Shown here: in pieces, positions 9,841 through 64,000 of the stretch
Numbering within the stretch: the stretch's first letter is position 1
Layout: the number at the start of each line of letters is the position of its first letter
Source of the DNA: Cornus controversa
Lineage: Eukaryota > Streptophyta > Magnoliopsida > Cornales > Cornaceae
DNA: 64,000 nt
Assembly: GCA_026545225.1 (NCBI GenBank)
Contig: CM048852.1
Location: 17,092,146-17,156,145 of the forward strand
Direction of reading: 5' to 3'
Notes under the pieces: model-generated
Databases searched by the model: none
What the model was told of the DNA's origin: nothing
Seen by the model: the letters and a program-made list of their open reading frames with translations, nothing else
Translations under genes and position numbers: made by a program

Positions 9841-11077
9841 TCACTCGCCACCATTGTTCTCTGGCTTCTCATCCATATTACCCTTTGGACTTTGAAGTAA
9901 ATCCCCCAAGTAAGACCCATCTGGCTGACAAATACAGATGTTCATCTTGCTGGAGGGGAGTGGTTCCTGGATGATATAAAATGGCCCCAAAGTAAGTCCT
10001 CAAATGATTTGATTTATCTGGCATTTGAGAGACAACTCAAGGATAATAACTTCCATACTTCTAAATAATTTTCTGCAATTCATTACACATCAAGCATCAT
10101 ATGAAATCTAAATCAGGCTTCTGTTCTACAATACGAAGTAATTTTAAGGCTAAGTCCAGTCACCGGGGAAAAAGAAGGGCATGATTCTTCTCCACCAAAA
10201 GAAACTAAGGAAAAACAGAAGTACATTTTGCTCGCAAATTGTCAATGTCTTTTTTCCATCTAAACCTCTTATATCTCAATTTCTTTAGTTAATAACATCT
10301 CAAGGTCATTTGAAATATTATTGAAATTTCAATCAGTTTTTCTTTTTTAGATTCTTTAGGTTTAACCAATAACTAAATCACACGGAAGGTTTGAACCGGT
10401 GAATTGAGAACTGTACACCTGCCCCTACTATCAACATCCATGTTAGGCTACCTAAAGATTAGTTGTAAGATTGCAAAACGATGCAAGTGTCACCGGCTTT
10501 GCACGAAAAATTAGGTACTGTTTCAGATGTTAACAGAGAAATAGTCACTGAAGTTCCACATTATTTTCATTCACAGGTATGTCATTTAAATTTGGCCACT
10601 AGAAATCATCCAGGTACAACAGAGACTCCTTCCCCTCCCTCTAAATAGCTTTAGGTGCGTTTGAGGGGGTGGGCATGAGGGCACAAGAGGGGAATTTAAC
10701 AAAGTTGCTTGCAAACACAAAGTTCAATAAGTTATCAAACAAATAATATTAAAATAAAAGCAACAATACTCAAACAGAGCTAAGAAGAACATCTGCTATT
10801 GAAGTTAAAAACTTGGCTAGAGATTCTGAAATTTGCAAAAGTTACTAAATCGTGTCAGTGAAAAGAAAAGGAGACATGGACACCTTAACAACACTACCTG
10901 ATCATCATTCTCTTGGCCCTCTGACTGGAAGAGTATTGGGGCACAGTGCTAATCTTCATTCATCAGGCTTGAATTCTGGAAGTGTGTAAGAAGGGCTGCC
11001 GTGCCCTGGATATGTGCATAGGCCAAGGAAGCAACTTTTTCACTATTAAACTTTTCCCACTTCTTCCCATTGAATGC
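9841..11077 (-). CDS. AML1: Mei2-like gene, coding exons 11-12 (end of RRM3 and C-terminal tail), with internal TAG
   Basis: Exon 11 (11077-10898) encodes [20 protein letters not shown], then [22 protein letters not shown], then TAG at 10951-10949, where the family has Lys (NEDKRCRPILF). Reading on past the stop gives [17 protein letters not shown], and exon 12 (9966-9841) gives a 41-residue tail ending NNGGE and TGA. The change from AAG to TAG needs one base. Other usually invariant Arg positions also differ here (ARIQG is AHIQG; RCRP is HCAP), unlike the rest of the gene. This could be relaxed constraint on the tail, a recent null allele or an assembly error. Translation would end about ten residues after the RRM3 core. 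Confidence 0.88.
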
Positions 11078-14000
11078 CTGCAAAATTTTCTACTGGATAA
11101 GTATGTCCACCAGTTTAAAAGAGTTCCAGAATTTCACTTTCATAAATTCAGTCGTATACTAGTTGACAGAAATGTGCATTGCACGTAGGCAAGGTGGTGC
11201 CTTGAGATAACGTTACTGAACAAAAGATAATTTCATTAGCAAAATTGATGGCAGTGGAAAAGAATATAGGAACATAAATAGCATGGTTTGATGAAGAAAT
11301 ATAGAGACATACATAGAGCATCCAAAACATATTGAGAGCATAGGCATTCCATCACAAGTTTTCTTTCTTTCATTCATGATCATTGCATATAGATGGTGGA
11401 GTGTTCACTATCTACTATCAAAATGCTTCAAGGAGATGAACATCAACATTCCACACAAATCAGAATTCAGTGATTGGACGTCTAGTAGTGGATATCAAAG
11501 TATCAAGCATAAGGAGAAGAATGAATTTCCTGAGATGTGGGTTTGTAGATTGACAATAACAAAGCAGTTTGGATATGAAGTAACTAGGTGATTCTAGGGT
11601 TTAAAATTTGATACTTATGTTTGTAAACTTCATATAGTGGATTTGATCTGCCTGTATTATGTAGAGACCCGTTCTAATTTTGACCGGTTTCCTTTTTTCT
11701 TATCATTTATTGTCTTAAACTAATTATAAATGATCGTACGTGCATTATATATATGAAATGCATGTGGGGACTAGTTTTGAGGTCCGGGGATGTTTTCGAG
11801 CCAATTGGCTCATTTTGAGATTTTCGGGTCAGCGGGGCCCGGAACAAGGGTTGGGTGGGCCCGGGAAACCGGATATTGTTTTAGAAATTATTATTTTTGG
11901 TTTTAGACCAATTAGAATGTTAGAAGAAAAATAAAATTGATTTCGAAGCCGTAGTCACTTTCGGAATCGAAAACAGAGGTTGGGAGGGTACGTTAAGTAG
12001 CGTAAGAGCATTTTGGTCATTTTGCATCCTAAATAATATAAATATTAAAATTTTGAGATTTCTCTTCATTCTCTCAAGACCAAATAGCCGGCCAAAGCTC
12101 TCTTTCTCTCCATATTCATTCCTTCTTCTCTCTTCATTCTAGAAGCTTTAAGCTTGGATTCGAAAGGTGCCAAAGAAGAACAAAGTGTTCTACACGACAA
12201 GGGCTGCGTTTTGAACTGAACAAAGTCCGATTTGGTGAAGTTTGGAAGCTTGGGATTTCTAAGGTTTTGCTATAAAAGGCTTGAAACTTGAGATAGGGCT
12301 GTCTTCTCCTTCCATTCATTGATTCCATAGGTTTTGGTAATGATTTTGGTGGTTTAGCATGCTAGGGTGACTTGGGAAGGTTGAGTATGTTAATTTACTA
12401 GCTTTTCTTCTTGTTGAAGTATGCTAAGATTAATTCTCATATGTGTTGTATGATGAGATTGTATATATGTGTTGATTGGGGGATGCATGAGGTTCATTAA
12501 TATCATTTTGAGTCATGAGATAGCATGTATATATTTTGAATGCCAAGTGTTTGAGAATATGCATCAAAGGAAGAAATTCCGTGAAAATGTTCTTGGTGAA
12601 GCCCTATGTATGGGATTACATGCATTGTGATATGCATGTTGAGCATGTGTTAGCATGGTAGTGTGAAATGGTTTACAATGTGAAGTATGCATCATAAACA
12701 TGCTAGTTGTGAAGTTATGTTACTTAATGCACATGTATAGAATTGTTAAATTCTTTATGTATTGAAGATGTCCTTGGGTGGATGACATTTGGAGTTTGGC
12801 CAATCATGTCACTAAAGTGGGAAATTATCCACTTGGTATGACCGTCGGAGTTGTCCAATCATACCTAGGCTAGTGCCTAAGAATCGGAGTTTGTGCACAT
12901 GCTCGTTTGACACTTGGAGTTAGCCAATCATACTTGAGTTATCAGAGTTTGACCATTGATTATAAATGTTGGAATGCTTATATGTTTTTCATTGAATAAG
13001 CATGATGAAATGTTGATATGCATGATTTGCATTAGAAACGATGGATATGAGCATTGAATATGCCATGTAGCTATTGAATATGCTATGTAGCTAATGAGTA
13101 TGCCATGTAGCTATAGGGATGCCATGTTGCATTTCATAAAGGTCGGTGTCGAGTCGATGCTTAGGTGAGTTGGGACAGTTCTACTAAGCACGTGTACCAC
13201 TCTCACCCCTTTCCCTCCAAATATTTTTACAGATAAAGCATCGGTGAAGGATGAGGCCTAGAGTTGAAGGATTTGGAGTTTTTGATATAGCATGTGCTTA
13301 TACATATATCTATGCTTGTATGTACCATGTTGGTACTTTTTGACAAACTTGTACTTTTGATTCTTATATGTGCGAGCCACATTTGGCATTTCCAGACATT
13401 AAGGAATGTATAGATGAAACAAAATTTTTGGATCAAATGTATGTGTAATGTGGACTTGATTCCTTATGAATAAAATTTATGGTTTATCACGTTGTGGATG
13501 TAATTGAATTTATGTTGGAGACTTGTGTTTGAATGCATGGTAAGAATGGGCGTATAAAGATGCAAAGGAACACTTAGGATTTTGCAGAATTTCTGCTCAG
13601 GACCCACGATGAATCGTAATTCACATAATCCCATTTACGCGGAATCATAACTTGAATTACGAGGAATCAAAAAATTGATGAAATGAGGGCAATTGCGCGG
13701 AATCGTAACATGCATTAGGATTAATCGTAATGTATGGCTGAAGTATCAAATTTGGGAAATCGTTAAAGTTTGCGTGTATCCTTATGAATGTTTACAGATG
13801 CCTATGTATAGTCGTAAGTATCTAAGAAGGCTTCTGTGGTTATATGAATTATGAATTGTTCATTGGGATTAATGGACGGAATCACCCTTGGGATTCGGGC
13901 CCGAAGATGGAGGTTTCGGGTATTTGGTTTCGGGGCATGACAATTAGGTCCTGTGGTTTTATTCCTTTGGGATTTTCCTCGTAAAATCGGTGTTTTTGCA

Positions 14001-17000
14001 TGAATTGTTTCTTGCTTTATTTTCTGTACTATTCTGAATGATTATTGGTTGATATGTGAATTGCCATTAAAATTATTTGGTTACAATTAAAATTTTTGTT
14101 TTTGTTAAAGTAGTTATTAAATTTTTTAATCTTACTTTGACCTATCAAAGTCTAGGGTGCTAGTCCGATTTCTCAGTTTTATTGTAGGAAAAAGGCGGAG
14201 AAAATATTGATGTCAAAAGTGGGACCCTATAAAATATAAAAATGAAGAAGTTTATTGTACTTGAGGGTTGTTTATGGAAATTATAAGTATAATATACTCA
14301 AGTGTTCTGGCAATTTATATATATGATAGAAAAACACAACTAAATATTTTTTAATATTTTTACGGTAACTTGCAAAAAAAAATCTTGAACTTTTCAAAAA
14401 ACTTGCAAATTCCAGATGCACGCAATCGCCCGCAAACCATGTGCATCATTTAAACCCAGGCCTCACCGAGACTCGAACTAGAGACCTAAAGGGAGTACTC
14501 CCACAGCCAAGCTGCCAGTGCGGGCTTTATTGAATTTATAGTAGAAAACTCAAATTGTTAGGATTTTTAAAATGTTAAATTATAGGAACCAGAAGAAAAA
14601 GAAAAAGTAAAAGAAAAAGAAAAGGGTGACTTGGAAGATGTAAAAACGCAGGACCTGAAAAGAAAAAAAGCTGGGCCCACAATGGAGAAAATTTCAGATT
14701 CTCAGTGTTTTTTATCAAAAGAGAATGTAAATCACCTAAAGGTATTTTATATTTATATAATATAAATATTGATGTACGTTGCTAGTCTTAACATGTTGAT
14801 ACCCTTGGAAACAGCACAGCAGCACCACAAAGAATGAGCTAAACAGGAATAGTTGCATGCACATACACCAACTTAAATATCAATTTTATTTTGTTACTTA
14901 TAAATTTTTTTTATCCAATACATTAAGCATGGGACAACTTCCAAAAACCGTAAGAAGGGACAGATAAATGAACCTGACAGAAGGGGATAACGTGTGAAGG
15001 AGACACCATATTGATGAAGGCATAACCTATGTTGCATTTGTTCTACAACCAAATAAATAAGTAACCATAAGTCGCGGTTCAACATTAGTGAAATACAGAA
15101 ATGTATTGAAGGTCCCCAACAAAATTACCTTATAATCAATTGGCAAATAGAAAAAATCATAAGTACCCCTATGACTTGCATCAATAGCAGCCAGCAACAT
15201 CTTTGAAGTGTACCTAAAAGGCAGACAAGAAAAGCACAACTTCTCAAGGAAACTAGCAACTGAGTTGAACAACCTACAGATTTCATAATTATACATTTTA
15301 GAATGTTCTTACTTATTGGGGATATTTTTAATCATTAATGTAGTCCTAGTATCTTCCTCACTAATGATCTTATCCAAATCAATCTGATAATGCTTCTTGC
15401 TGTCTATCTGGCTGACACTGTACTCAACCCACAGACTTTGAACACGTTCAGCCAACCCCTCATTGCAGGTTGCTCCAATTCCTTGATAAGAACCATTCCT
15501 CAAAAAAGTGGGCCCATTCCTTGGAAATGGCATAATTCTGGAACTCAGCGAACCACTTTCAGTCATGTTTCCTGTGGGTGCAACACGAACACTCATAGCC
15601 TCATGTGCACCCATATTCATTATATAATTTCCATTGTTATGACTTAAACCCATATTCCCAAGTGCAACTGGGCTCTCGAAGGATGTTTCTGGTGACTCGG
15701 GGAAGTAGCTGATATGCCTGTCAAGAGGAACACCAGATGGAGCAGATCCCACAAGCTGTTGGCTATGTGATCCAAAGAATGACCCATGTTGATTGATATA
15801 TGGATAAACTGGTCTCTTTCCACCGGAAGCAAATGGGTTCCCCACTGATGATGTTGGCCAGGCAGAAGAATTGATACACTCCCAGTGAGGAGTGGGACTT
15901 CCCCAAAGAAACTGAGGCCCAGATAGTGTACCAATACCGGATGAATTAGAACTTGATTCACCAAAAGACGACACGAGTCCAGGACTTGCACTTAATTTCT
16001 CCTCAGGAAGGGAATGAGAATGCTGATAAGCAGCTCCTTGTGTTGATTTGGCATTACCGATTACTTGGTTCACATTGCTAACCTTTCCTTGGTCTTTACC
16101 AATTGGTGCAATCTTTGCAGGGTTTGGAATGGTGGATGGTAGAATAGAAGCCAACCCAGGCAAATGGTTGCTTTTCATTGGAGTGAAAGTTCCTGAGCCA
16201 GGCAACTGACTAAAACCTTGCGAAGGATTGTGTTCAACTGGGCTGCTGATATGTGGCCAGTTGCCTGTCTGTGCCACTGATTTCAGCATATAACAAAAAA
16301 TGCATTTAAAACAAAAATTGGAAAAGGAAATTGTTCAATAACCATAATAATAACTTTAATCTCTCTCATAAATGCAAATGGCTAGAGATATTCACCTGGA
16401 GGAGAGTTGGTTAGTGGTGAGCCTATTTGATGTCGGAAAGTTCGAGCTTCATCTTGTTCCAGCTCTTGATTCAATTGATGCACCAAGCTGAACACAGGAA
16501 GCACAAGCAATCCAATTTTTTCAACTTGAAGAAAAGTTACCTTTAATGAATCAATAACACAACTAAAATATGATCTGAAATTGATCAATACAACACGACT
16601 GAAAGCCATTAGAAACTGGAAAGTGATGAAACAAAAAACTGCAGCATCAGAAAAGGACATTCTGCAAAACATTCAATGAACAGAAAATAGCAATCACATA
16701 AAGCATACTAGTTTGGACCTCCATGAATCCAAAATCTTAGAATACAGAGTTGACTTGAAATGAGAACGAAAGTTGGGTATGAATACATAGCTGAACACAG
16801 AAAGCACATACAATTCAGTTTTTTCAACTAAAAAAAAGTTACTTTTAATTGAATCAATAACATAACTAAAATATGATGTGCCACTAATCAATACAACATG
16901 ACTAAAAGCCACTAGAAACTGGAAAGTGGTGATAACAAAAATAAGGGACAAAAAACTGCAGCATCAGAAATGGACATCCTGCACCTCGAAAGTAGAAAAG

Positions 17001-20000
17001 CCTTCTATGCTAGCAAATGTAAGCTTCTTCTTCTTCCATCATCACATGCAGAAAATGAGGGTGTCTTATTCAAGTTAGTGTGTAGGACACATATCCGTAC
17101 TCATATCAATTTCGTGTCATATCATGACAACATGAGTATGTTTAGGAGAATAGGAGAGTCCATGTAACAAGCTTTAAAAATATCCCCACCCCCCACGAGA
17201 GAGAGAGAGAGAGAGAGATGAAAACTAGTTAGTATGTACATGGTTACCAGAAGCACCTTTTAGTAAGGAGATAAGGTAATGTGCTTCCAAAAAAATCATA
17301 GAAAGCCGATTATGGTTCCGTTTTCAACCATACTTTCTTCCTTCAATTCATCCACCCTTTCCTAGTCATTTCAAACCATACATGCAATAACTATCTGAAA
17401 TATTTAAGGAGTTAAGGTAATGTGCTTCCAAAAAAATCATAGAAAGCCCATTATGGTTGCATTTTCAACCATATTTTCTTCCTTCAATTCATCCACCCTT
17501 TCCTAGTCATTTCAAACCATACATGCAATAACTATCTGAAATATTTAAGGAGTTAAGGTAATGTGCTTCCAAAAAAATCATAGAAAGCTCATTATGGTTG
17601 CGTTTTCAACCATACTTTCTTCCTTCAATTCATCCACCCTTTCCTAGTCATTTCCAACCATACATGCAATAACTATCTGAAATATTTAATAGGGGAATTG
17701 GTGGTGATTGTCAACATCAAATTAAACTATTCAAATCTCAAACCTATCATCACTAGCAGGATATACAAGTAATCCATACAATATATTTAGTAGGTTATTT
17801 AAAATTTTAATCTCTCAAAACAATCAAACTAAGCAAGAATTTCATTAAGGCACGGTTTTGAGACACTGAGTCTTTGCGTGTCAGTCGAGTCGTAACAAAC
17901 TCAACTAAGGCGGAGTCAATATTCACCGATATATTGGTGAAAATTGGATTGGAATCATATCACTCTTCTGAGTCCCTAGCAACTCGACCGAGTCTCTTCT
18001 GATTAGGCCTAGTCAGCACGGTATATGATGGTGTGCAAGGTCAACCAAATTTTCACGATTGCTGTTTCCGATACTGTTACGTAACGCCCGTCACAGCCCA
18101 CATCTGATACACTACGACCGCAGTAGTGTCCACGACTTAAAACAATGCTTTAAAGGAGGATCTTCTAATTGATGTGTTAGAAAAATAATTTCTGTATATT
18201 TTCTGTTCTCAAGGAGAGCTCTTTATATACAAATTACAATCAGCTAAATAAAGAAATAGATTATAATTATAGCCTAAGAATATACAAATTACAATCAATT
18301 ACAATCAGCTAAATAAAGAAATATAACATAATCATAGCCTAAGAATATTCTGAAAATATTGCTAATAAATCATGGAAGTTTAACACTTCCTTGCAAACTC
18401 GGTTGTCCAAGAGAGACGATGTTGGATCGGAGGAGATGAAAGCGAGTCTTGTGAAGCCCTTTGGTGAAGATGTCCGCAAGCTGATCGGTAGAGGGAATAA
18501 ATTGGACATGATGTGTGCTAGTAAGTATGCGTCCCCGTATAAAGTGATAATCCAGTTCAATGTGCTTAGTACGAACGTGGAACACTGGATTTGAAGCCAT
18601 GTAGGTAGTGCTGAGATTATCACATAGTAAGGTGATGGGCGTGGAGATGGGAAATTGTAATTCCTGAAGAAGATGAAGCACCCATGTGGATTCAGCACAA
18701 ATATGAGCAAGAGATCGGTATTCGACTTCGGCACTGAAACGAGAGACAGTGGGCTGTTTCTTGGCGGTCCAGGAGATAAGATTAGATCCCAAGAAAACAC
18801 AGAAGCCAGTGGTAGAGCGGCGAGAGTCAGGACAACCTGCCTAGAGCGCTGAAAGTGGAGACCAAAATCCAGCGTCCCTTTTAGATAACGAAGGACCCTT
18901 TTTGGCTGCGATGAGGTGAAGAGACCGAGGTTGACTTATAAACTGAACAACATGATGAACAACATAGGCAATGTCAGACCTGGTGAAAGTGAGGTACTGC
19001 AAGGAGCCAACAAGTTGGCGATACTTAGTGGGATCCGGTAGGAGATCCCCGTTGTGGGACGATAGTTGAGTCTTTAGCACAAACTGGGATGTTGCAAGGC
19101 TTACAGTCTGTCATAGAGAAGCGTAATCCAATGGTGGAGAAGGTTGCTTCAAGTCTTAGAAAGTAGGATAGAGAACCAAGGTCACTGAGCTCAAACTCTT
19201 TGCCAAGAGTGGTGATGAAGGAGGAAATTAGAGATAATTGATTGCCAATGAGCATTATAACAGAGTCGGAGCGATAAAGAAACAAAGAGTGGTCAGAACG
19301 ACACTGGGTAAAACCAAACTATAAGAGAAAGATGCTGAGATGTTGAAACCAAGCCCGGGGCGCTTGTTTGAGTCCATAAATAGCCTTGTGTAGATGATAA
19401 ACGTGATCAAGGCAAGCAGGGTCAATGAAGCCAGGAGGTTGAGTCATGTAGGCAGTTTCATCCAAGAGGCCATGAAGGCATTATTTACATCAAGTTGGCG
19501 TATAGTCCAGCCAAAGGATAGGGCAAGACTGAATACAGTATGGCCAATGGTGGGTTTAATTACAAGACTGAATGTCACATCGAAGTCAACGCCAGCCTAT
19601 TGATGGAAGCCTTTGGCAACTAGACGAGCTTTGTGGTGGTCAATGGAACCATCTGCCTTGCATTTGAGTTTGAAGACCCACTTGCATCCTACTACATGTT
19701 GATTGGGAGTAGCAGGAGGGACCAACACCCAAGTGTTATTCTTTAATAAGGCATTAAACTCACTGGTCATGGCCTGTTGCTATTCAGGAACACAAACAGC
19801 CTGTGTGTAGCAGGTGGGTTCGTCAGTAGAGTATGGAAGTTGTGCGAGAAGAGCTCGGGATAAAGGATATCTAATTGTACCATCTGTCTAGATAAGAGGT
19901 CAACGGGTGCCATCCTGATGACGAGTAACCATCAGATGCAATAGGGGAATGGTAGAAGGAGTCGTAGAGTTGGCAGCAGTGATAGTAGGAGGTGCCGAGG

Positions 20001-23000
20001 GCTGAGTGGCCTGACGTTGAAAATGGTATGGAAAAGGTTCTTGAAGAGGAGCCAGAGAACTCTGAGAAGTAGGAGGAGCTGGAGAGTTGATCTAGATGGC
20101 AGACTGTAGAGGGACCTCAAGAGCGGGAGGGAGTAGAGGAACAAAGGCCCAAAATGACGGTTTTGATGAAGTGCTGGTAGTAGAGGTAAATGGAAAATGT
20201 TGTTTGTTAAAGCGAACATGTCAAAAAATGTAGACTCTGCCGGTTTTGTGATCCAGACAACGATAACCTTTGTGCTGCAAGTTGTAGCCTAAAAAGACAC
20301 TTTCAACAGTTCTTGGCAGAAATTTATTAGTCAAATAAGCACCTAAGTGGGGATAACAAGCACAACCAAACACACGCAGATCAGAGTAGGAGGAATAATG
20401 ACCATAGAGACGGGAGAAGGGTGAGGACCACTAGAGTTTAGGGGAGGGAAGGCGGTTGATAAGGTGAACAGCGGTGGAGACTGCGTCAGGCCAATGGCAG
20501 AGAGGAACATGATTAGTGATGAGGAGGGTGCGGGCCATGTCAGCAATATGGCGGTGTTTGCGTTCTGCGATGCCATTTTGTTCATGAGTGTGAGGGCATA
20601 AAAGAGACGGTGAACTCCAAGGGAAGAACAAAGGATTTTAAAAGGACCATTGTCATATTCCCCACCACCATTACTCTGGAATTATTGGACGTGAGTGGAA
20701 AATTGAGTTTGGATGTAGGCTTGGAAATGTTTAAAATGATGGAGAACTTCAGATTTATGTTTCATAAAGTAAAGCCAATTAAAACGAGTGTAGTCATCAA
20801 TGAACAACACATAGTACTATAGCCAAAAACAGAAATTATTGGAGATTGCCATACGTCAGAATGAATCAAAGTAAAGGGAAAAGAGGTGTTTATTTCATTA
20901 GATAGGGAAAAGGGGAGGCATGTGGATTTACCTAAAGCACATCCTTGACAAAATGAGGATTTGAATTGAAAAGTAGAAGATAACAATTTATTGGACCCTA
21001 AGTAAGACATAACTTTAGCAGATGGATGACCAAGAAGATTATGCTAGAGGGAGGATGAACTGTGGGAGGCAGACAAGGCAGGTAGGCGGAAGGGCAGGTA
21101 ATTTGTAGAGACCATTCTTATATAGGTCCTGATAGAGGAGAGAAGCAGTGGTTAGATTGAAGATATAAAAGTGATGAGCATCAAAGGCGCATAACACATG
21201 ATCATCAGTACAAAATTAAGTAATGGAGAGCAAGTTTTTACGCATGAAAGGAACGACAAAGACATTATTAAGGTGAAAAGAAGAAGAGTCGAGTGGTAGT
21301 GCCATGTTACCCGTATAGGTAATAGGGAGTAGATCGCCATTGTCAAGTTGAACAGTGTCGGGACCACTGTAAGGTGTGCGTTGCTGGAGAAGAGTCGGGT
21401 TGATATTCAACGAACGTGGGACTGAGGGCTACGCAAATGATGAGAGCCGGAATAAGTTGCGAGCGGAATGCCCAATCCCAAAGCATAGCTGGCATTGAGA
21501 CATGGATGATGGTGCAAGAACTGGGCCAAGGATACCCGAGGTATTCTTCTGTTATTCTTGTTTAATTTCTCTCTTCAATTTTATTTTATTTTATCAACAT
21601 GTTATCAGAGCAGGTTATCATACCCTACTCTAGATTCATCTCGAATTTTCAGATCAACTATCAACTCACCTCGGATCTTCAGATCAACTCGTCTTGGATC
21701 TCAAGATCAACTTGTCTTGGATCTTCGGATCAACTCGTCTTGGATCCCGGATCAACTTGTCTTGGATCCCGGATCAACTTGTCTCAGATCTCAAGATCAA
21801 CTCGTCTTAGATCTTAGGATCAACTCGACTCAAATTCTATTTAGTTTCAAGTTGGACACTTAAAGTTAAAATCTCCGTGTACCAACTTAAGGGGGGGTGT
21901 TGGAGAATATATTATTGGAGTGATTTATGAGATTGATTTTAGGAATCTTCCATTAATGTATTTTCCATATTTATCACATGTATTCTTTCACCAATAAATA
22001 GAGGTGGTCATTGTAAACAAAACTAAGAGAGAATACAATAAAAGTGATGCAACCCTTTGGGCTTTGTGTGTCGTGGATGTAGGCCGTAGTGGCTGAACCC
22101 CGCTATATTCTTCTTGGTTTAATTTCTCTCTTCAATTTTATTTTATTTTATCAACAGTTGTGAAAATTATTCCGTGGAGTAGAATTTGAAGACTAAGATG
22201 CTAGGAAGGCTGAAGGGGCAGGATGAGAAGAGGTTTTGTGTTAGGCCTCATAGTTCAGTAGGTGAGCACGCAGAGCAGAGAACTGGGGCAGTGAGTCAAA
22301 GCTCTCAATGGCAGTGACTAACATGTCAAACTTGGAACCAAGGCCGTTGAGGACGGCATTAACCAGATCTTTGTTAGAGACCGGCTCACCAATAGCAGCG
22401 AGAGCATCATAAATAGATTTGGCTTCTTGAAGATACTCAGAAACGGGTCGGGTGCCACGCTCAAGACTAGTGAGCCGTTTCCTATAGAGAGAAGAATTGG
22501 CAACAGATTTCTGAGAGAAGTGATCCTAAATGAGAGTCCAGATGGCAGCGAAGAATTTGCACCCAATAACAGAGGCTAAGATAGGTTCAGAGAAGGTGGC
22601 TGAGATAATACTAACAAGGGTTTTGTCAGCTTAGAGCCAAGTAGAGCGATTTGGTTCTTTAGTAGGGTAGGGGTAGGAGTCATCAACAAGGCGTAGGAAG
22701 TTTTGTCCATAAAGAAAAGCCTCCATTTGATGAGACCAAAGAAGAAAATTGTCTTCTGTGAGTTTAACCGTGACTAGATTGGTGATAGTGGAAATAGAGA
22801 GGGTTGGGGTAGCAGTAAGTCTGGTGGCGACAGTGGTGGAGCCGTTGTTAGACATATTTGAATAGGTGGCAGGAAGAAAGAATGTCACAGTGTGGTGGCG
22901 ACAGTGGTGGAGTCGTTGGTAGACATATTTGAATAGGTGGCAGGAAGAGAGAATGTCACAGGAGGGAGAAGAGAATTCGTAGGGGCTGGTCGGAGGGGCA

Positions 23001-25788
23001 GAGGGTCGCTGAAGAGTGTAGGGAGAGAAAAGAGGATCAATATTAGGCTGATACCATGTTAGAAAAATAATTTATGTATGTTTCCTATTCTTAAGGAGAG
23101 CTTTTTATATACAAATTACAATCAGCTAAATAAAGAAATAGATCATAATTATAACCTAAGAATAAACAAATTACAATCAATTATAATCAGCTAAATGAAG
23201 AAATAGATTATAATTATAGCCTAAGAATATTCTGAAAATATTGCTAATAAATCACGGAGGTTTAACATGATGTTCCTTGAAAAGAATAAACTAAATAGAG
23301 CCATAAGCAGAAAACCATTGGCAAACTTCATATCAGAAGTTGTCAATTCATAGAAGCTATAGTAAACATGATTCAGAATAAGAAATTAAAGGACTTGAAT
23401 AGAATAGCCACATGTTGGAAAAGAAATAGAATATAGACCTTAGAATATGTATGGAAGGTAATCCGTCATGTACTTCTAAGTTATGTATTAGGTGTTTAAT
23501 TAGATCAAAACTCTACAATTAGATAACCATTTCTCGCTCAACTTAATTCAGCCTTCCAACAACAAAATAGATGTTTACTAGGCATGAGATAAAAAAAATA
23601 ATAGGGTAAATACCACTTACACCCCCTGCAACTAACATCCGTCAGTTAAACTGAATATTTTTGGTGATTTTATGAATTTACCCCTGATTAGAATAAGAAA
23701 TTAAAGGACTTGAATAGAATAGCCACATGTTGGAAAAGAAATAGAATATAGGCCTTAGAATATGTATGGAAGGTAATCCGTCATGTACTTCTAAGTTACG
23801 TATTAGGTGTTTAATTAGATCCAAACTCTGCAATTAGATAACCATTTCTCGCTCAACTTAATTCAGCCTTCCAACAACAAAATAGATGTTTACTAGGCAT
23901 GAGATAAAAAAATAATAGGGTAAATACCACTTACACCCCCTGCAACTAACATCAGTCAGTTAAACTGAAGATTTTTGGTGATTTTACGAATTTACCCCTA
24001 ATTAAAATATTTAATTTAATTAATAAAAATTGGTGATGCTAAAAAGACCGAATTGACCCCTCTCACTTCAGCTCTTTGCTCTCTGTTTCTTTTCCTTTCT
24101 CTCTCTCCACTGCCAAAGCACACCACCAAGCTCAACCGGTGAGACACCACTGCCAAAGATCCACCATTGAAGCACAACCGAAGTGTTACCAACCATCCGA
24201 GACCTTCGTCTCCATCAAGCCACTTCTCGAAGCATTCGAGCTCCTCAGCTCCGCCTTCATCACCTGGTCCGGCCCTGGCAAAACCCTTCTTTCGAGTCCA
24301 CCTCGAAGGGCTTCTATTGAAATCCTTTCTTCCTTTCCAGTACCCTCCGACTGACTCTCCGTCCTCAACTCCACCTTCTCTAAAGGTGGAAGGAATAAAG
24401 CCATCAACGAGCCAAGGAGGCGGAACCATTTCATCTCATTTCTCTTCACCATAAATAGCTCCATCCAAGCCAACGACAGCTGACTTCTGACGTGAGATAC
24501 GATCAATCCATCATTCCATAAGAGTCTCAATCCCCGCTTATAAACGGGAGTAAGAAGCCAGTGGGTGAGAGTGAGTGAGGGGCTGAGACAGACACCATTT
24601 CCCGAGGCAAGCAAACGGGCCATCACTATTCCTTTCCTCTACCAAGAAAGGTTCATTCCGAGTCACAAGAGCAATCTCTCTTTTTTTTTGAATTAATTTT
24701 GCTTTTCGTTATGGTAATGCAATGTGTGAGAGCAATAGTCCACCTCTCAATCCTGTCGAGCGATATAGTCTTCCTTCCTCTAATCCAGTAGTAGGCGACC
24801 TCCCTACTTGCTTAAGTAGCTAAAAAGATTGGAACCAATGAGCGCAAATATCCCTTGCCTTGTGAAGGCAAGCCCGCTTTGCAGACCTCTCCCTTTGGTC
24901 ATTAAATTTACTATAGTATGATGTTGTACACTATATTAAAGTGAGTTTAAGGCACGGGCTCCAAAGCAACAACCACCACAACCCCATACTTGTTCCTTCT
25001 TCGATACACAACCTCCACCGAGCTCCATTGCCATGCAACACCACTGATCTCCAATGAAGACCCATCAACCGAAGACCCACATCTCCATAGCCACTGCCGA
25101 ATCGAAGTCTCCTCAATCATGAAGAGTCTCACTGAGTCACTGCCAGACCCATTCCAATGTCAAGCATTCTGTCGCCATCTCATCAACCCATGCACGAAGC
25201 CATTGTCGAAGCTATATCTGTGATGGGGCAGTGGAGACCCGGCTTGCATGGTGGCATTGAGCCTCGGATGGTGGGTCTTCGACTGAAATGGTGGTGGCAG
25301 CAATGGTTGGAGCTCGGTTTGGAGAAGATGGTTCCATATAGTGCATTGGTTGAGCTTAAAGATGGTCAGCAGTGAGCTTCGTCGGAGACAGTGGAGCATG
25401 ACAGTGGTTGTTGGTGCTCGGTGAGTGATGAGTGGTGGTGATGAGGAGCTCATCGACGACCTCACTGGTGGCTTCTTCCCAACGTTTGTCCAAGTGATCC
25501 TCTTCCACTATTATGCCTTTGTCATGCTCTAACAGTCACACCTCTCCATTTCTGAAACTTCTGATACCCTTTTGAGCCAATTCCCCAAAGAAGATAAAAA
25601 CGGGTACAATTAGAAACCCACAAACATGTAATATCAATATATATACGTGTATATAGTTCACGAAAAATCAATCAATGAAGTTATAAGTACATCTATAAAC
25701 ATATAAATATATATATATATATATACAAGAATATATAATATATAGTATATAGATATTATACCATAGAGAGAGAAAGAGAGAGTGTGTA

Positions 25789-28800: not shown

Positions 28801-31800
28801 CGAACTTCATCTCATCATTGTAGAAGCAACATCATCAAGAACAAAGCATGCATGACATTCTACAAATGTTCACACATTAATATGATATCGACCTTTTTTT
28901 CCAAGGTTACACAATCTGGTAACAGTATCAATATTAATCCAGGTTGAACTAAAAAGAGACGACAAAACGTATTCAGCCACAATAGATGGGGAATAATAGA
29001 AGTTTGGCACAAAAGGTGAAATTAAAACTCTGAAATGGTCTCAAATCAAACAGAAACTCCAGTACTTTTGAGAGCAAATTGCAGTTAAAGTTTGCAATTT
29101 GAGCAACCAGAAGCCATTGAATTTTTTTAACAGATTGAAAACCATTCCACAAGTAACATATTTACCACAAGTATATTAATCCTTCCAAAGCAACACTGCA
29201 GTTCCGACAAAGTTGAATGTGATAATGATTTATTGGTATTACATTTTTAAATCTGACACAGAAAATTTGACATCAAATGCTATCACTATTTTATTTTATT
29301 TTTATTTTGGAAATAAGAATTAAGGGGGAGAGAGAGAGAGAGACCCAGTGTCAGTAAACTTGTTAAAAAGATGTAATTTTCACAGACAGAATAAAAAAGA
29401 AAGGAGACTTGATAGAAAGCAAAATCCCTTGTCAATAAGAGTGCCTATACTAGAACTACCAGGATAAGTGTCAAGTGGAAAGAGCAATTTCTCAAAAAGA
29501 AAAAATCATACTTTCGACGGGCTCCACCAGGCCGGCTAGGTTCAAGCTTTATGCGTTTCCCAGCTATGTCACTCCTATTCAAAGCTTTAAGAGCTGCCTC
29601 AGCAGCTCTAACATCATAAAACTCAATGAACTTATGGTGTCGCTTGTGTGGTGTTTCCCTGATCTGCATTTTGTACAGAAGGAAATCAAAAGTCATAGAG
29701 GTAATCATGATAACGAGGGAGGTATGCACACAGATTTTACTAACAAAAAAGAGCAAGTATGAAGATAAAGAAATTTGTACCTCTTTCACCTCCCCATAAG
29801 CCCCAAATATTTGACAAAGATCATCATTTGATACTGATGCATCTAAATTGAATACTAAAAGAGTTCCTTGGTTAATATCCTTTTCGGATGGGTTATCCTA
29901 GAAAGTAGCAAGGGAACATAATACATGATATAGATGTTAACATAATCAACAGAATATAAATGTGTCATAATATGCAGAGACTTTAGTTCAAACCTTAGGA
30001 ATTGAAAAGTGAATATCAAGTTTTCTTTGTCTTAAGGGCTTATTCTGTAATCCACGCATTGCAGTTCGAGCAGCTCGGATATCATAGTAAGATATCATCA
30101 CAAAGCCCCTGTGCTTGCAAGCAGTATATAGACTTCTGATATCCCCATAATGCTACAAACAATTATCAGTTTCATGATCAATTAGCATTATCAGTTCAAT
30201 ATTAATAAAATAGAGATATGAAACCGTTTGTGGGTAGAAATAAAATAAGAAGTCGTATCAGGAAACAACACTGTAAAGCCCTAACAATTACCTTACTAAG
30301 GCCCAAGTTGAATTTATGAAGGTTGTAGTTTTAATCAAGCATCACATATGTAATTGTACCTTGAACCATCATATTTATCAAAAAGGCAAACAATTGAAAC
30401 TTGAAAGGCCAATCTATTGAGATGCCTGTGGCTGAGGTCCTATTTCTAAAACCAGCAGCACCAAAAACTATTATTCAAGGAGATGTATTCATTATCCTTA
30501 ACCTTCAGATACTAATCAGTTTTTCACGTGTGTGGAAGCTGGTATTATTCCCAAACATGGTACCAGGATGTATTGTTTGTTTAACATTAAAATTTCCATC
30601 TAATAGGTACATTTGAGCAAGGCTTGTTAAGTTAGCCCAGAGAGAGAGAGAGAGGATACCATCCATATACCTGATAAAGCATATTAAAATGGTTAAAGGG
30701 AGAGGTGGGCTACATGATCAATGCCATATAATCAATAGAATATTTTGCCTTGCATCAATTATATCAATTACACATTATGCCAAACATTGTTCAATAACCC
30801 ACAACAGGACTCTAACCAAAGAAGAGAAGAATTTGCATGTTTTTTCATGTCTGTGGAAAGAATAGGTCAAATAAGATGACAGAAAAAAGAGCATCAACCA
30901 AAAACTAACAACAGCACTGACATGCATATAGAGCTCACTCAATGGATAAAGCTACAAATAAAACCATCATTGACACAACGGAGAGAGGAGTTAGTATGAC
31001 CATGTGAACTGCAAGCTATTGGTATGAGCATAATATAGTTAGTTGCACTGATTTGGGTAATGTAATTGTCACACCCCCCAAATTTAAATATCAGAACACT
31101 AGGAAGCGCAGACATAGGAATACAATATGGACACGATGAGACAACAAATCTCAAAAAAAAAAAATAGGACATGGACATGGCAAGGATACGTCAAAAATAT
31201 AAATAAATAAAAATATATTATTATACAAAAAAAAATTCAATTTCTCAATAATACCACACACATTCTAGGGGATGTCTACACTTTTTATTCTATTCTTCTA
31301 TTTCTCCTCTTTTTCTTCTTCTTCCTCTTGCTTTATCTCTAATTGATTTGGCTTAAATTTTGATATGAAAAGTGAGAACAAATCTTTAGGCAAAAGAACA
31401 AATAGAAGATATCACTAAGCTTACGTTACCCCATTAAATTTTAAAATTCAAATTGAGCCCCATGGTTTTTTAAAAAAAAAAATCACCAATTGACCCCATC
31501 GTGTCTGAAAATGTGTCCCGGCCATGTCGATGTGTATCCAGCCATGTCCCTGGCGCATCGGGGCGTGCCCTTACTGTGTCTGTCTCAAAAAAATAATCAT
31601 TTAAAAACGTGGATACGTGTCCAGCTGTGTCCTCAACGTGTCCGTGTCCGACGGAGTCTCCATGCTTCCTAGTCAGAACATCTTGTTCAATACCCAAACA
31701 TGGTGCATGAACTAGACACATCCATTGCTATATTGGATAATTGTTAGGAATAAGAGTCATGTGTTGGCAATTTCAAAAGACTAATTACTCCATAATAGAG

Positions 31801-34800: not shown

Positions 34801-36717
34801 CCAATCATAGTATATATTTATACATACTTGTCAAGAAAGATCAAAAGGCTTTTGAAATTTTTCGCTTTAATGGTACGATTTTTCCAACAGATTTAACCAC
34901 CCATACAATTTGTTATTGCTTGGTCAATGAGGAAACTCGTCAAAGGGGAAAAATTCATACGTTTTTCCTTTTCCCCCTTTACCATATCACTATTGTTGCT
35001 GGTCCAAGCCAGATGCTCGAGCTAGCTTGTTGAGGTCCTTCAAAAGTAGAAAAGGTAAAAAGAAAGTTTTCTGGGCCTTCTAAAAATCATATAATAATTG
35101 CCATTTTGAAGAAGTTTGCTATGATAAAAACATATCATAAAATTACATCTTTCATGCCCATCTTCAATTCAGTGATATTATACATGCTTCACATGAATAT
35201 CCAAACACCAAACAATATGAAATTAAAAGACTATTTACTACATAAAAAGAGATTATAGGTACATCAATTGCATTAAAACCTAAGCTTCAGAAAATGTTAT
35301 ATAGATTTGAATGCTTTAATACCCTTCAATTATAAAAAGATAATGAAATCCTATGGAAAGAAAATAAAGCACACAAGACAACTGAAAGAAAGATTATCCC
35401 ATCTCCATTTAATTTAGGACATAGAATTCACTTCTTGCTAAGATAGAAAATAGAAATTAGTCATTAAGAATATATTACCGTGCACGGAAATATATATATA
35501 TATATATATTACTGTGCATATATATTAGTTCTACTGCATATGTTTTGAGCGAAACTGCAAATTTATTCATTATTATCTATTTGTACAATTTAAATTGTTA
35601 ACAAAAAAATTTGGAACAGCAAACACAGTAGATCCATGTTTAATATCCAATCAGACTGAGATTCCCCCTTAAATTTAAGCATTTATCACAACAAGTGGAA
35701 GACACCCTTAATTAGAAATAAGTTTTCAATGAAGGCACTCCTTCAGAATGCAATAGACTTGTCAATATATCGAGTGGCCAAAATAAGCAAATGGAATTCT
35801 TCACAAGCATATTAAGTAGAATAACTGGGGTACAGACAGGATGGTAGCAAATTAAATAAACGGAATCTGACTGATGTATAATACCTCAAAGAGAGATCTC
35901 AACTCAGAATCCTCAACAGTACTATTGATATTCCGAACAAATAATGTTCTTGAAGGATGTTCACCATATGGATGTTCTCCAGCAACTGTTCCCACACCAT
36001 TTAGAAGACCGTAATGACCAATCCCATTTCCAGCAATACCATTATGCATGCCTAACTTTGACATATCGAAAATCAGGCTCTCTTGGGGTTGAAAATCCAA
36101 CTCCATTCCCCCTCCACTGCCAAATAGATCATCTTCCACATCTTCCAGTTGTGTAGGCAGCCCATTTAGGTCAAAATAATCCATTATGCCAGCTAAAAGC
36201 TCATCTTCATCACCAGGAAGCAAGCTTCCAATTGCATTTAGTTCAATATCGTCAAGTGGATCCTTACTGTCATTTTCTTGGTGAAGTTTATTTAAGATAA
36301 GCAAGCCATCGTCAACGGATTGATCACAATGCTCTGATTTAGTGAAGTTCACTGCAACATTGGCTGAAACAAATCTCAGAAATCATACCAAGTTACAGGG
36401 ATCTAAGACATAGTTAAAAGGAGCCACACTTACACTTCTCGTGAGAAAGAACAGGCAATGAGCTAGAAAACAAACTAGCATCACTTGATGCATGATATGC
36501 ATCAGCTCCATGTGGGATCCCCCATGCATTTCCCACTTCTCTAGAAACATTCACTGGCGGAATTTTAGATGAACCTGGGAAACATAAACAAACAACTGAT
36601 CAGTAGGTATGAAGTATATCTATATAAGCATGTATAACATTAAGTTTTCACCGGTTAAAGAAAAAAAATGGCACCTTTAGAATTATCTAAAATAGAATTC
36701 TTTAAACGATGCTCCAT
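9841..36717 (-). CDS. AML1: Mei2-like RNA-binding protein gene, 12 coding exons, in-frame TAG near the 3' end
   Basis: Mei2-like proteins are plant RNA-binding proteins with three RRMs, acting in meiosis and vegetative development and related to fission yeast Mei2. Coding exons on the minus strand: 36717-36675, 36574-36434, 36363-35885, 30152-29994, 29897-29781, 29663-29512, 16487-16396, 16276-15313, 15213-15129, 15042-14974, 11077-10898 and 9966-9841. Every junction is GT-AG and phases agree throughout (2,607 nt). RRM1 is about residues 199-274, RRM2 about 285-357, RRM3 about 705-800. The start is supported by an in-frame TAA directly before ATG 36717 in the same exon. The N-terminal LPVLSHEK and [18 protein letters not shown] motifs suggest the AML1/AML4 subgroup; the exact member is uncertain. 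Codon 810 is TAG (10951-10949), so the predicted product is 809 residues unless the stop is bypassed. Introns 3, 6 and 10 are swollen by transposable elements. Confidence 0.93.
11660..13942. mobile_element. Solo LTR of a Ty3/gypsy (chromovirus-type) element
   Basis: Starts TGTAGAGACC and ends GGGGCATGACA, flanked by ATTA on both sides (a 4-bp match). No primer site, pol or polypurine tract accompanies it, so it looks like a solo LTR from recombination between LTRs. It lies in intron 10 of the Mei2-like gene. It shares landmarks in the same order with 41,497-43,356 and with the 1-3,220 region: TGTAGAGACC, GATTTTCGGGTC, AACAAAGTC, and a CTCACCCCTTTCCC block followed by AGATAAAGC. Confidence 0.75.
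14365..14527 (-). mobile_element. tRNA-derived SINE remnant
   Basis: On the minus strand: GCCCGCACTGGCAGCTTGGC (A-box-like TGGCAGCTTGG), then GTCTCTAGTTCGAGTCTCGG with a good B box (AGTTCGAGTC), ending near a T-rich tail around 14,375. Spacing and motifs fit a plant tRNA-type SINE. Target duplications were not resolved. It lies in intron 10 of the Mei2-like gene. Confidence 0.55.
14974..15213 (-). CDS. AML1: Mei2-like gene, coding exons 9-10 (core of RRM3)
   Basis: Exon 9 (15213-15129) encodes [20 protein letters not shown] and on to LPIDYK. Exon 10 (15042-14974) encodes [20 protein letters not shown] and FCQ, containing the RNP1-like GYAFINM. This is the C-terminal RRM characteristic of the Mei2 family, the part that binds RNA specifically in yeast Mei2. 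Both exons are small and phase-consistent. Residues match the plant consensus closely, so RRM3 seems intact up to this point. Confidence 0.92.
15313..16487 (-). CDS. AML1: Mei2-like gene, coding exons 7-8 (central linker and RNP2 of RRM3)
   Basis: Exon 7 (16487-16396) encodes the conserved [20 protein letters not shown] block. Exon 8 (16276-15313, 964 nt) is the usual long Mei2-like exon: a Ser/Gly/Pro/Asn-rich linker with [16 protein letters not shown], a [12 protein letters not shown]-type motif, [15 protein letters not shown], then [20 protein letters not shown] and the start of RRM3 ([11 protein letters not shown]). The exon ends two bases into the Lys codon, and exon 9 supplies the third base. 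The linker is probably disordered. Confidence 0.93.
16487..16975. repeat. Tandem duplication of about 300 bp upstream of exon 7 of the Mei2-like gene
   Basis: 16,487-16,670 and 16,790-16,970 match closely (GCTGAACACAG, GAAAGCACA, AACATAACTAAAATATGAT, ATTAGAAACTGGAAAGTG, AACTGCAGCATCAGAAA). On the minus strand both copies carry the same polypyrimidine-CTGTGTTCAG acceptor; the one at 16,488 is used for exon 7. Confidence 0.75.
17265..17689. repeat. Three tandem copies of a 141-bp unit in intron 6
   Basis: The unit runs from AAGGTAATGTGCTTCCAAAA through CATAGAAAGC, TTTTCAACCATA and CCACCCTTTCCTAGTCATTT to AACTATCTGAAATATTTAA. Copies start at 17,273, 17,414 and 17,555 with only a few differences. 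A GA microsatellite lies just before (17,199-17,218). Confidence 0.9.
21540..22158 (+). mobile_element. Small TRIM-like LTR element nested in the copia fossil
   Basis: A 260-bp LTR-like sequence (21899-22158, TGTTGGAGAA to ATCAACA) is preceded by a G-rich polypurine tract (AAGGGGGGGTG). About 300 bp upstream, the end of the same LTR recurs (up to 21599), followed by a tRNA-Met-like primer site (TGTTATCAGAGC). The interior is non-coding and made of short GATCAACTCGTCTTGGATC-like repeats. Orientation is opposite to the host copia element. One LTR copy is incomplete. The short non-coding interior fits a TRIM. Confidence 0.75.
21640..21840 (+). repeat. Short tandem GATCAACTCGTCTTGGATC-type array inside the TRIM-like element
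   Basis: About eight imperfect units of 18-27 bp, alternating GATCAACT(C/T)GTCT(T/C)(G/A)GATC with CAGATC, CGGATC or CCGGATC. It encodes nothing evident and sits between primer site and polypurine tract. Confidence 0.7.
23376..24004. repeat. Direct duplication of 314-315 bp spanning the left edge of the MULE-like element
   Basis: 23,376-23,690 and 23,691-24,004 are nearly identical. Each holds about 230 bp of flank followed by the first 87 bp of the MULE-like element (GGGTAAATACCACTTACACC at 23,604 and 23,918). The duplication therefore happened after the element inserted. Confidence 0.85.
23918..26109. mobile_element. MULE-like TIR element with 9-bp target duplication and unusual cargo
   Basis: The left end GGGTAAATACCACTTACACC and the right end (reverse complement GGGTAAATATTACTTACACC) are inverted repeats. 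AAAATAATA (23909-23917) and AAAACAATA (26110-26118) flank it, 8 of 9 identical, the length typical of Mutator-like elements. There is no transposase. The interior (24,060-25,500) is GC-richer than the surroundings and low in stops in several frames. It includes an organelle-like block (24,440-24,900) and a block rich in CCACCA/GGTGG near 24,960-25,470. A Pack-MULE is a reasonable reading; the sources are not identified. It lies in intron 6 of the Mei2-like gene. Confidence 0.6.
24440..24900. other. Possible mitochondrial-DNA-like insert (NUMT) within the MULE-like element
   Basis: The style of this block (CCGAGTCACAAGAGCAATCT, GAAAGGTTCATTCC, CTTGTGAAGGCAAGCCCGCT, GGCGACCTCCCTACTTGC) is that of plant mitochondrial intergenic DNA and differs from both neighbours. 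This is recognition of composition and phrase, not an alignment. Confidence 0.35.
26119..27803. other. Intron 6 sequence with no recognised element
   Basis: AT-rich, with a T run at 26,632-26,646 and a possible decayed repeat between 26,560 and 27,330. No gene supported. Confidence 0.4.
27804..28304. mobile_element. hAT-like non-autonomous element, about 500 bp
   Basis: The left end TAGGGCTGCAAAACTCAAGC and right end GCCCGCCAAAGTTGCAACCCTG are imperfect inverted repeats of the C/TAGGGYTGYAAA type found in plant hAT elements. Flanking 8-mers (TTTTCCTT and TTTTTTCT) agree at 6 of 8 positions. No transposase. In intron 6 of the Mei2-like gene. Confidence 0.5.
29512..30152 (-). CDS. AML1: Mei2-like gene, coding exons 4-6 (rest of RRM1, all of RRM2)
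   Basis: Exon 4 (30152-29994, 53 codons) gives the RNP1 region [20 protein letters not shown] and ends LDIHFSIPK. Exon 5 (29897-29781, 39 codons) gives DNPSEKD followed by RRM2 RNP2 (GTLLVFNLD). Exon 6 (29663-29512) gives [20 protein letters not shown] and ends in the Gly/Arg-rich linker SRPGGARR. Splice sites are canonical. Exon 6 ends with two bases of a split AAC codon that is completed in exon 7, 13 kb downstream, giving the family motif ARRN-L. These exons look fully constrained: I saw no altered invariant residue. Confidence 0.93.
31099..31672. mobile_element. GGACAC-rich fold-back element with perfect 8-bp target duplication
   Basis: The ends CTAGGAAGC and GCTTCCTAG are perfect inverted 9-mers, and TCAGAACA flanks both sides (31091-31098, 31673-31680). 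An 8-bp duplication suggests hAT-type transposition. GGACA/GGACAC repeats crowd the left end and GTGTCC repeats the right end, in inverted orientation, like subterminal transposase-binding sites. No coding capacity. It lies in intron 3 of the Mei2-like gene. A second copy is at 51,567-52,090. Confidence 0.7.
32296..32890 (-). mobile_element. Cassandra TRIM retrotransposon with 5S rRNA-derived LTR
   Basis: LTRs 32296-32527 and 32598-32890 start TGTAACA. A perfect TTTAT duplication flanks the whole (32291-32295, 32891-32895). On the minus strand the right LTR is followed by a TGGTATCAGAGCC primer site (tRNA-Met). The interior is only about 70 bp and ends with a polypurine tract (AAGGGGGGTGGAT). 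The right LTR contains a reverse-orientation 5S-like segment (about 32,640-32,735). Short, non-coding, with 5S in the LTR: the defining traits of Cassandra. The two LTRs differ in length and sequence, so the insertion is not young. In intron 3 of the Mei2-like gene. Confidence 0.88.
32640..32735 (-). pseudogene. 5S rRNA-like segment within the Cassandra LTR
   Basis: The minus strand reads CCCCATCAGTAATCCGCAGC, TAAGTGTGCTT, AGTACTAGGATAGGTGATCC, TCTGGGAAGTC, matching plant 5S rRNA from its middle to near its 3' end, including box A (AGTTAAGCGTGCTT-like) and box C (GGATGGGTGACC-like) with substitutions. It is part of the retroelement and not a host 5S gene. Confidence 0.85.
33160..34200 (+). 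mobile_element. 5'-truncated L1-type LINE with 10-bp target duplication
   Basis: GTGTCTTAGT occurs at 33150-33159 and again at 34201-34210. Between them lies the 3' end of a plant L1 LINE: an open frame at 33277-33765 encodes the reverse-transcriptase C-terminal zinc-binding (zf-RVT) region, with [27 protein letters not shown] and [19 protein letters not shown] second, shifted frame (33737-34126) carries the [15 protein letters not shown]-like tail, so there is at least one frameshift, near 33,750, at an imperfect direct repeat (GTTGCTGAGGTTCG). It ends with a TAATAAAATAATC segment and an A-rich tail. Inserted in intron 3 of the Mei2-like gene, antisense to it. Confidence 0.85.
34400..34760 (+). 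mobile_element. Possible copia LTR fragment
   Basis: TCTCTTGGTTTTCTTC, TAGGGTTTTCCATATAAAAA and GTCTTGTTCATGATTG follow the order of the R/U5 part of plant copia LTRs (a TTTTCCACGTAAA-like stretch). No ends or coding part seen. Similar to 38,040-38,600. Confidence 0.35.
34760..35884. other. Intron 3 sequence with no recognised element
   Basis: AT-rich unique-looking DNA with a short (TA)n tract at 35,490-35,508 and no supported gene. Confidence 0.4.
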
Positions 36718-48040: not shown

Positions 48041-48042
48041 TC

Positions 48043-48309
48043 TTTTTTTTCAATTGTTTTTAACTGTTCTCACAAGATAACTGAAACTCAATTACACAAT
48101 TTTACTTCAACTAAAACTAAATTTCATATTTTTACTTCAATAAAAACTTCAAAATTTTATCCAATTATATACTGATTCAAGCCAATTGGATAAATTTTTG
48201 AAGTTTTGATTGAAGTAAAAATATAAAATTTAGTTTTAGTTGAAGTAAAATTGTGTAATTGAGTTTCAGTTACCTTGTGAGAACAGTTAAAAATAATTGA
48301 AAAAAAACA
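48043..48309. mobile_element. Near-perfect fold-back MITE (hairpin of about 118-bp arms)
   Basis: The left arm (TTCAATTGTTTTTAACTGTT, CTCACAAG, AACTGAAACTCAATTACACA, and on to AATTTTATCCAATT) is mirrored almost base for base by the right arm (AATTGGATAAATTTTTGAAG to TTGTGAGAACAGTTAAAAAT). The loop is only about 14 bp (48,169-48,182). Differences between arms are few. A transcript would be a long double-stranded RNA, a likely siRNA source. Confidence 0.8.
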
Positions 48310-48315
48310 GTGAGA

Positions 48316-48684
48316 AATGTTGTGTTTGGTACGCAACAATGGAATGAAATGAAATGGAATGTCAATATTACCTTTTTGGATTCATTCATTTGCTTGGTTA
48401 GAAAAATTAAAGTGGGAATGACCATTCCGCGTCATTCTCTTGGAATAAAAAAGAATGAAAATTCATTTCACTGCAAAACCTATGGAACTGTCATTCCATT
48501 CCCAATAAACATTAAAAAATAAAATATATTTACCAAAAATAATGTAATCATTATTTTACTCTTGCATCATTTCATGTTTAAAACCAAACAATAGAATGAG
48601 AATGACCATTTCATTCTCATTCCATTCTCACTTTAATAAAAAAACTCATTTCATTTTATTGTTGCGTACCAAACGCAGCATTAT
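48316..48684. mobile_element. MITE with GTTTGGTACGCAACAAT terminal inverted repeats
   Basis: Left AATGTTGTGTTTGGTACGCA followed by ACAAT and GGAATG repeats; right TGTTGCGTACCAAACGCAGC followed by ATT. TIRs are about 40 bp with few mismatches. This GCGTTTGGTACGC plus GGAATG design is a widespread plant MITE type. Duplication length not resolved. It lies directly next to the hairpin MITE. Confidence 0.7.
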
Positions 48685-63797: not shown

Positions 63798-64000
63798 GTA
63801 CTCTCTCTCTCCTCCCTCTCTCTGCACATTTAAACGTATATATGTTTGACATATAGGTGTAGTTTTGATTGGCTGTCTGGTGGAAATTGAATGATAATTT
63901 TCTACTTAGAATACGAATTGAAAGGTGTTCATTGTGATTTGTGTTCATTGTGATTTCGTGACGATTACTTTAAATTGAGAGTATTTGAATTTTTTTTCTT

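Follow-up and report, generated by a model that had tools for sequence, protein, structure and literature searches.

The window, a stretch of 64,000 nucleotides from Cornus controversa (C8:17092146-17156145, in a searched assembly of 772 Mb and 61 contigs), holds on its minus strand a Mei2-like gene, referred to below as the C8 copy, which runs from 36717 to 9841 in 12 exons that join in frame and whose 11 introns all have GT-AG ends. Exon 1 (36675..36717) opens with the start ATG at 36717 and equals in length its counterpart in a paralogue on C3; it is followed by exon 2 (36434..36574) and by exon 3 (35885..36351), where RRM1 begins, to continue into exon 4 (29994..30152). RRM2 occupies exons 5 (29781..29897) and 6 (29512..29663). 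After exon 7 (16396..16487), the linker and the start of RRM3 lie in exon 8 (15313..16264), with RRM3 passing through exons 9 (15129..15213) and 10 (14974..15042) and ending in exon 11 (10898..11077), which also contains an in-frame TAG and the start of the C-terminal tail. Exon 12 (9841..9966) carries the tail beyond the TAG and terminates in its own stop. No other gene was identified by eye in the ORF list of the window.

The acceptors given here for exons 3 (36351) and 8 (16264) are those of the C3 and C5 paralogues and lie 12 nt further in than in an earlier model. Each of these exons has a second in-frame acceptor (36363 and 16276, respectively), 12 nt upstream of the paralogue-type one. 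With the paralogue-type acceptors adopted, the frame comprises 860 codons ahead of the final stop and the TAG is computed to be codon 802; the original prediction was correct about the TAG and its frame but numbered it 810, because it relied on the longer, likewise in-frame, acceptors of the same two exons. Pfam recognizes RRM_1 in two stretches of the C8 protein and a full-length RRM_2 (3e-51, 172 bits), the latter match spanning residues 705-801 of the longer 809-residue model. C8 thus has two N-terminal RRMs and a C-terminal RRM_2, and it shares its gene structure with C3 (12 exons) and C5 (exons 2-12); these copies, together with those on C7, C2 and C1, are what we take to be AML-type genes.

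The plus-strand CTA at 10949-10951 is a minus-strand TAG, in frame within exon 11, and constitutes the sole frame-breaking change of the gene: downstream of it the C8 frame remains open through exon 12 to the terminal stop, and the homology of this frame to the paralogues, both before and after the TAG, is more than chance would provide. At the same site all five other AML-type copies have a Lys codon, either AAG or AAA, and read NEDKRCRPILF; in C3, C5 and C2 the codon is AAG, a single base away from TAG. The neighbouring residues are altered in C8 as well (AHIQG, HCAP), at three positions where Arg is found in 5/5 of the other copies. In the numbering of the exons 9-11 alignment, the changes of C8 are R74H, K78T, K95*, R96H, R98A and G110D in exon 11, and E13A, F28Y, V34I and I47V in exons 9-10. 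The original prediction had already put forward the place, frame and strand of the TAG, the 12 canonically spliced exons, the one-base distance from AAG, the family Lys and the flanking Arg changes, all of which hold.

The predicted C8 product ends eight residues past the Pfam-defined core of RRM3, losing RPILF together with the rest of its tail, which is about 58 residues long. An open frame through NEDKRCRPILF and the tail after RRM3, a feature common among the copies here and not defining alone, is interrupted in C8 by the TAG inside it. When compared with plant AML-type Mei2-like genes (Arabidopsis AML1-5) and with C3, the gene is alike in its two RRM_1 stretches, its third domain of RRM_2 type and the 12-exon structure of C3, and unlike in that its TAG removes RPILF and the tail and in that RRM3 residues are changed. 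The last exon junction lies 51 nt beyond the TAG, a distance near the edge of the usual transcript-decay rule. Among the literature matches listed, whose titles and abstract openings were considered, no natural stop at this place was seen, which is no proof of absence.

A search of the assembly with exon-11 DNA returned the window itself and four paralogues, with identities of 87, 83, 74 and 74%, the C8 locus being present in a single full-identity copy. A protein search yielded a fifth paralogue, located on C7, as well as four RRM3 matches that are more distant (C2:94.87 Mb, C7:49.78 Mb, C10:45.12 Mb and C4:63.33 Mb), which are excluded from the Lys count given above. The C3 copy, nearest by DNA (87%), shares all 12 exons and is free of internal stops; ten of its exon lengths equal those of C8, exon 8 being off by 3 nt and exon 12 by 9 nt. 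C5 is open across exons 2-12, its exon 1 not having been identified, and for C7, C2 and C1 the comparison covers six exons each, namely 4-6 and 9-11. The paralogue without a stop that had been envisaged earlier does exist, in complete form on C3. C8 and C3 are sisters in both trees built from the six exons (FastTree 0.988; IQ-TREE 95), with the branch of C8 nearly twice as long as that of C3 (0.067-0.069 vs 0.036-0.038), and over 855 codons they are separated by a dS of 0.341 and a dN of 0.106, with about 350 differences in their aligned coding sequence. Portions of the 5' region, the introns and the 3' region are alignable between the two; the window has one further match to the C3 region, whose orientation differs from the gene's. 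In the C1 copy, a TGA appears at the end of exon 6 if the exon length of C3 is applied. The notion of C1 as a second decaying member was dropped, as by eye a GT six nt upstream would keep the frame and is probably a shifted donor.

Three introns of C8 are swollen in comparison with C3: intron 3 (5732 vs 921 nt), intron 6 (13024 vs 662 nt) and intron 10 (3896 vs 302 nt). Intron 11, in contrast, is shorter in C8 (931 nt vs 2100 nt in C3), and intron 6 is long in C5 too (3238 nt). Within intron 6 of C8 lies an LTR element (18175..23267, minus strand) with 211-nt ends that are 92% alike, judged by eye to be of Copia type and to have broken frames. Intron 10 contains, upstream of exon 11, a 2283-nt repeat bounded by TG...CA (11660..13942) with ATTA on both flanks, which by eye resembles a solo LTR and belongs to a dispersed family of at least 57 matches, itself included (query 11700-13950; 40 of 6073 first-look candidates scored). 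That the intron 10 transposon might have uncoupled exons 11-12 from the transcript remains no more than an idea, given that exons 9-10 are changed too and that the partition test described below is negative. Several other repeats occur in the window. Intron 6 contains a 141-nt unit in three head-to-tail copies, 97% alike (17264-17689); a 223-nt segment in two copies, 98% alike and 315 nt apart (23375-23912), adjoins the LTR element of this intron; and a stretch of about 560 nt with ends alike by eye and a 23-nt-spaced array (21600-22160) is nested within that element. Outside the gene, there is an inverted repeat at 48034-48316, with 133-nt arms that are 94% complementary and 17 nt apart and a foldback- or MITE-type look, and from 57811 to the window end at 64000 there are long direct repeats, 75-98% alike and reaching 300 nt, that are spaced about 2466 and 3150-3320 nt apart and form a large tandem or segmental repeat.

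Selection on the C8 branch was assessed with a codon model of three copies, with C5 as a distant outgroup (dS about 1.0) and with several tests that are uncorrected; under this model the branch omega is 0.519 for C8 and 0.172 for C3, equality being rejected (p = 0.007), so that selection on C8 is relaxed relative to its sister. The omega of C8 is raised because the model assigns it fewer neutral changes than C3 (0.42 vs 0.62 per codon), and omega = 1 on the C8 branch is nevertheless rejected (p = 0.042). When all RRM codons are taken together, omega is 0.237 in C8 and 0.034 in C3 (p = 0.025), and tests of equality by subset give p = 0.05 for RRM1-2, p = 0.22 for RRM3 and p = 0.11 for the non-RRM codons ahead of the TAG. 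The 59 columns past the TAG have an omega of 4.8 in C8, which differs from C3 (p = 0.013) and not detectably from 1 (p = 0.45), a hint that these columns may be the worst off on this branch. In a joint two-partition model, the omega of C8 is 0.514 for exons 1-10 and 0.569 for exons 11-12, and no difference between the two was detected (p = 0.74, or p = 0.31 allowing for C3 rates); owing to this negative result, a loss of constraint confined to the tail is not shown. The original prediction had suggested a loss of constraint in the tail with the RRMs still constrained, a division that neither the partition test nor the faster RRM codons of C8 support.

Its statement that RRM1-3 match the plant consensus likewise went too far. 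Where the other five copies all agree, C8 is changed at 10/86 sites over exons 9-11 (TAG included), compared with 2/78 in C3, 0/76 in C5, 1/77 in C7, 2/78 in C2 and 5/81 in C1, and over exons 4-6 the counts are 4/102 for C8, 1/99 for C3, 1/99 for C5, 11/109 for C7, 6/104 for C2 and 4/102 for C1. According to Fisher tests of C8 against C3, the difference has p = 0.034 in exons 9-11, p = 0.37 in exons 4-6 alone and p = 0.011 when both exon sets are pooled (14/188 vs 3/177). C8 does not stand out in exons 4-6, and a general collapse of RRM1-2 is disfavoured by the p value for these exons and by the larger number of changes in C7 and C2.

The age of the lesion can be approached through seven short introns, in which C8 and C3 differ by 0.366 substitutions per site over 684 aligned sites and by 18 gaps, of which 15 have a length that is not a multiple of three. 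Had C8 evolved neutrally from the duplication onwards and taken 40-50% of this divergence, its coding sequence would be expected to carry about 10-13 stops, as estimated by simulation, and 22-28 frameshifts, that is, some 33-41 lesions. What is seen in 2.58 kb is a single stop without any frameshift; the 801 codons that precede the TAG are clean of either kind of lesion. Neutral evolution, with omega near 1 and many lesions, is hence not what this gene displays, and, when the count is used as a clock, the neutral share of the C8 branch is at most about 12-14%. Either the stop is therefore recent, or the frame upstream of it is still under selection. The pairwise C8-C3 omega past the TAG is 0.305, below 1 (p = 0.0099), and thus the tail spent much of the period after the duplication under selection. 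With a disabled frame and a whole relative in the same genome, C8 has features of a pseudogene; it resembles duplicated pseudogenes in early decay in its premature stop, its relaxed selection and its whole relatives, but differs from them in having only one lesion and a branch omega still below 1.

From a structural point of view, the RRM3 region of C8 can be aligned with Mei2 of Schizosaccharomyces pombe, as represented by five PDB entries (6YYL, 6YYM, 7DUS, 7EIO and 7EIU; four distinct sequences). The Mei2 numbering used here was derived from F634, F644 and N680, residues named in PMC7859202, all of which land on the expected letters. That paper describes a C-terminal extension of Mei2 RRM3 made of one helix and two strands, with models reaching residues 725-727. 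In this derived numbering the TAG aligns with P701, and the RPILF segment that C8 has lost aligns with RPKIF of Mei2. C8 therefore resembles the yeast protein in being alignable over RRM3 and in retaining the Phe equivalent to F644, whereas Mei2 runs on through the extension and C8 stops at the position aligned with P701. C8 has Tyr instead of Phe at the F634 position, and His instead of the plant Arg at the N680 position. Since the contact named for N680 in PMC7859202 is made via the main chain, the latter change may matter little. The predicted truncated product may have lost RNA binding.

We consider it probable that C8 is a redundant duplicate under relaxed selection that was recently truncated, i.e., a case of ordinary duplicate decay caught early. 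According to this scenario, C8 and C3 are sister duplicates of a gene for an AML-type plant Mei2-like RNA-binding protein, of which C3 is whole, with four older copies retaining the same residues around the TAG site; C8 would have been under weakened selection since the duplication, three of its introns are swollen, two of them with the transposons identified here (introns 6 and 10), and the in-frame TAG at codon 802 would have been gained recently. What is directly observed is the in-frame TAG, the existence of paralogues, the elevated omega on the C8 branch and the near absence of other lesions; we infer in addition that a protein ending at the TAG has little or no function, that the TAG arose recently and that the loss is tolerable thanks to the paralogues. 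It is nevertheless important to stress that, with omega below 1 and 801 clean codons before the stop, the truncated frame could be in use. An unlikely alternative is accordingly that the shortened protein, with RRM1, RRM2 and the core of RRM3 kept, is still made and used, the loss of the tail altering or tuning its RNA binding. One stop without any frameshift, where about 33-41 neutral lesions are expected, would fit such a protein, as would the full-length RRM_2 match and a TAG only 51 nt ahead of the last junction, near the limit for transcript decay. However, a recent stop explains the low number of lesions equally well, residues of RRM3 are changed, including those aligned with the Mei2 contacts F634 (F to Y) and N680 (R to H) of PMC7859202, and the removed RPILF not only aligns with Mei2 but is kept in 5/5 of the other copies. 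Very unlikely is the variant in which a tail-less C8 protein with an altered RNA-binding face of RRM3 (Tyr and His at those two positions) would act unlike its C3 sister, for instance in competition or through a different preference for RNA.

The changed neighbours of the TAG (R to H, K to T, R to H and R to A) also bear on whether the TAG is an error of assembly or consensus, or one allele of a heterozygous site, a view that we regard as distinctly unlikely, notwithstanding the single base between TAG and the AAG of C3, C5 and C2 and the presence of only one full-identity copy of the locus in the assembly. A single base error would not explain these neighbouring changes, as the original prediction had argued, and the C8 branch is faster across the whole gene, which weakens the reading as a lone error, though not that as one allele. 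Finally, the stop might be bypassed, either by translational readthrough or by splicing that takes the TAG out, for which there is very little chance. The frame is indeed open after the TAG to the stop of exon 12, an exon with GT-AG splice sites, and the pairwise omega of 0.305 past the TAG points the same way; but the tail shows no constraint on the C8 branch, and a scan for exitrons, covering GT donors within exon 11, found seven in-frame GT-AG candidates of at least 60 nt, each of which would delete 29 codons or more, some of them from RRM3. Readthrough in plants has the motif CARYYA, which the context TAG-CAC-TGT does not match.

In this genome the site is retained by all five other AML-type copies. 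The most likely account of C8 is an ordinary decay of a duplicate at an early stage, and taken alone it opens no long-standing question. PMC8896719 describes the AML genes of Arabidopsis as redundant in meiosis, defects being seen in double or triple mutants. At the C8 locus an automatic gene model would give a shortened protein, which may serve as a warning. For the family, C8 offers a duplicate regulator of Mei2 type in what is probably an early stage of decay, with only one lesion and an intact sister to set beside it, and a modest illustration of redundancy being lost among genes that in Arabidopsis are linked to meiosis.
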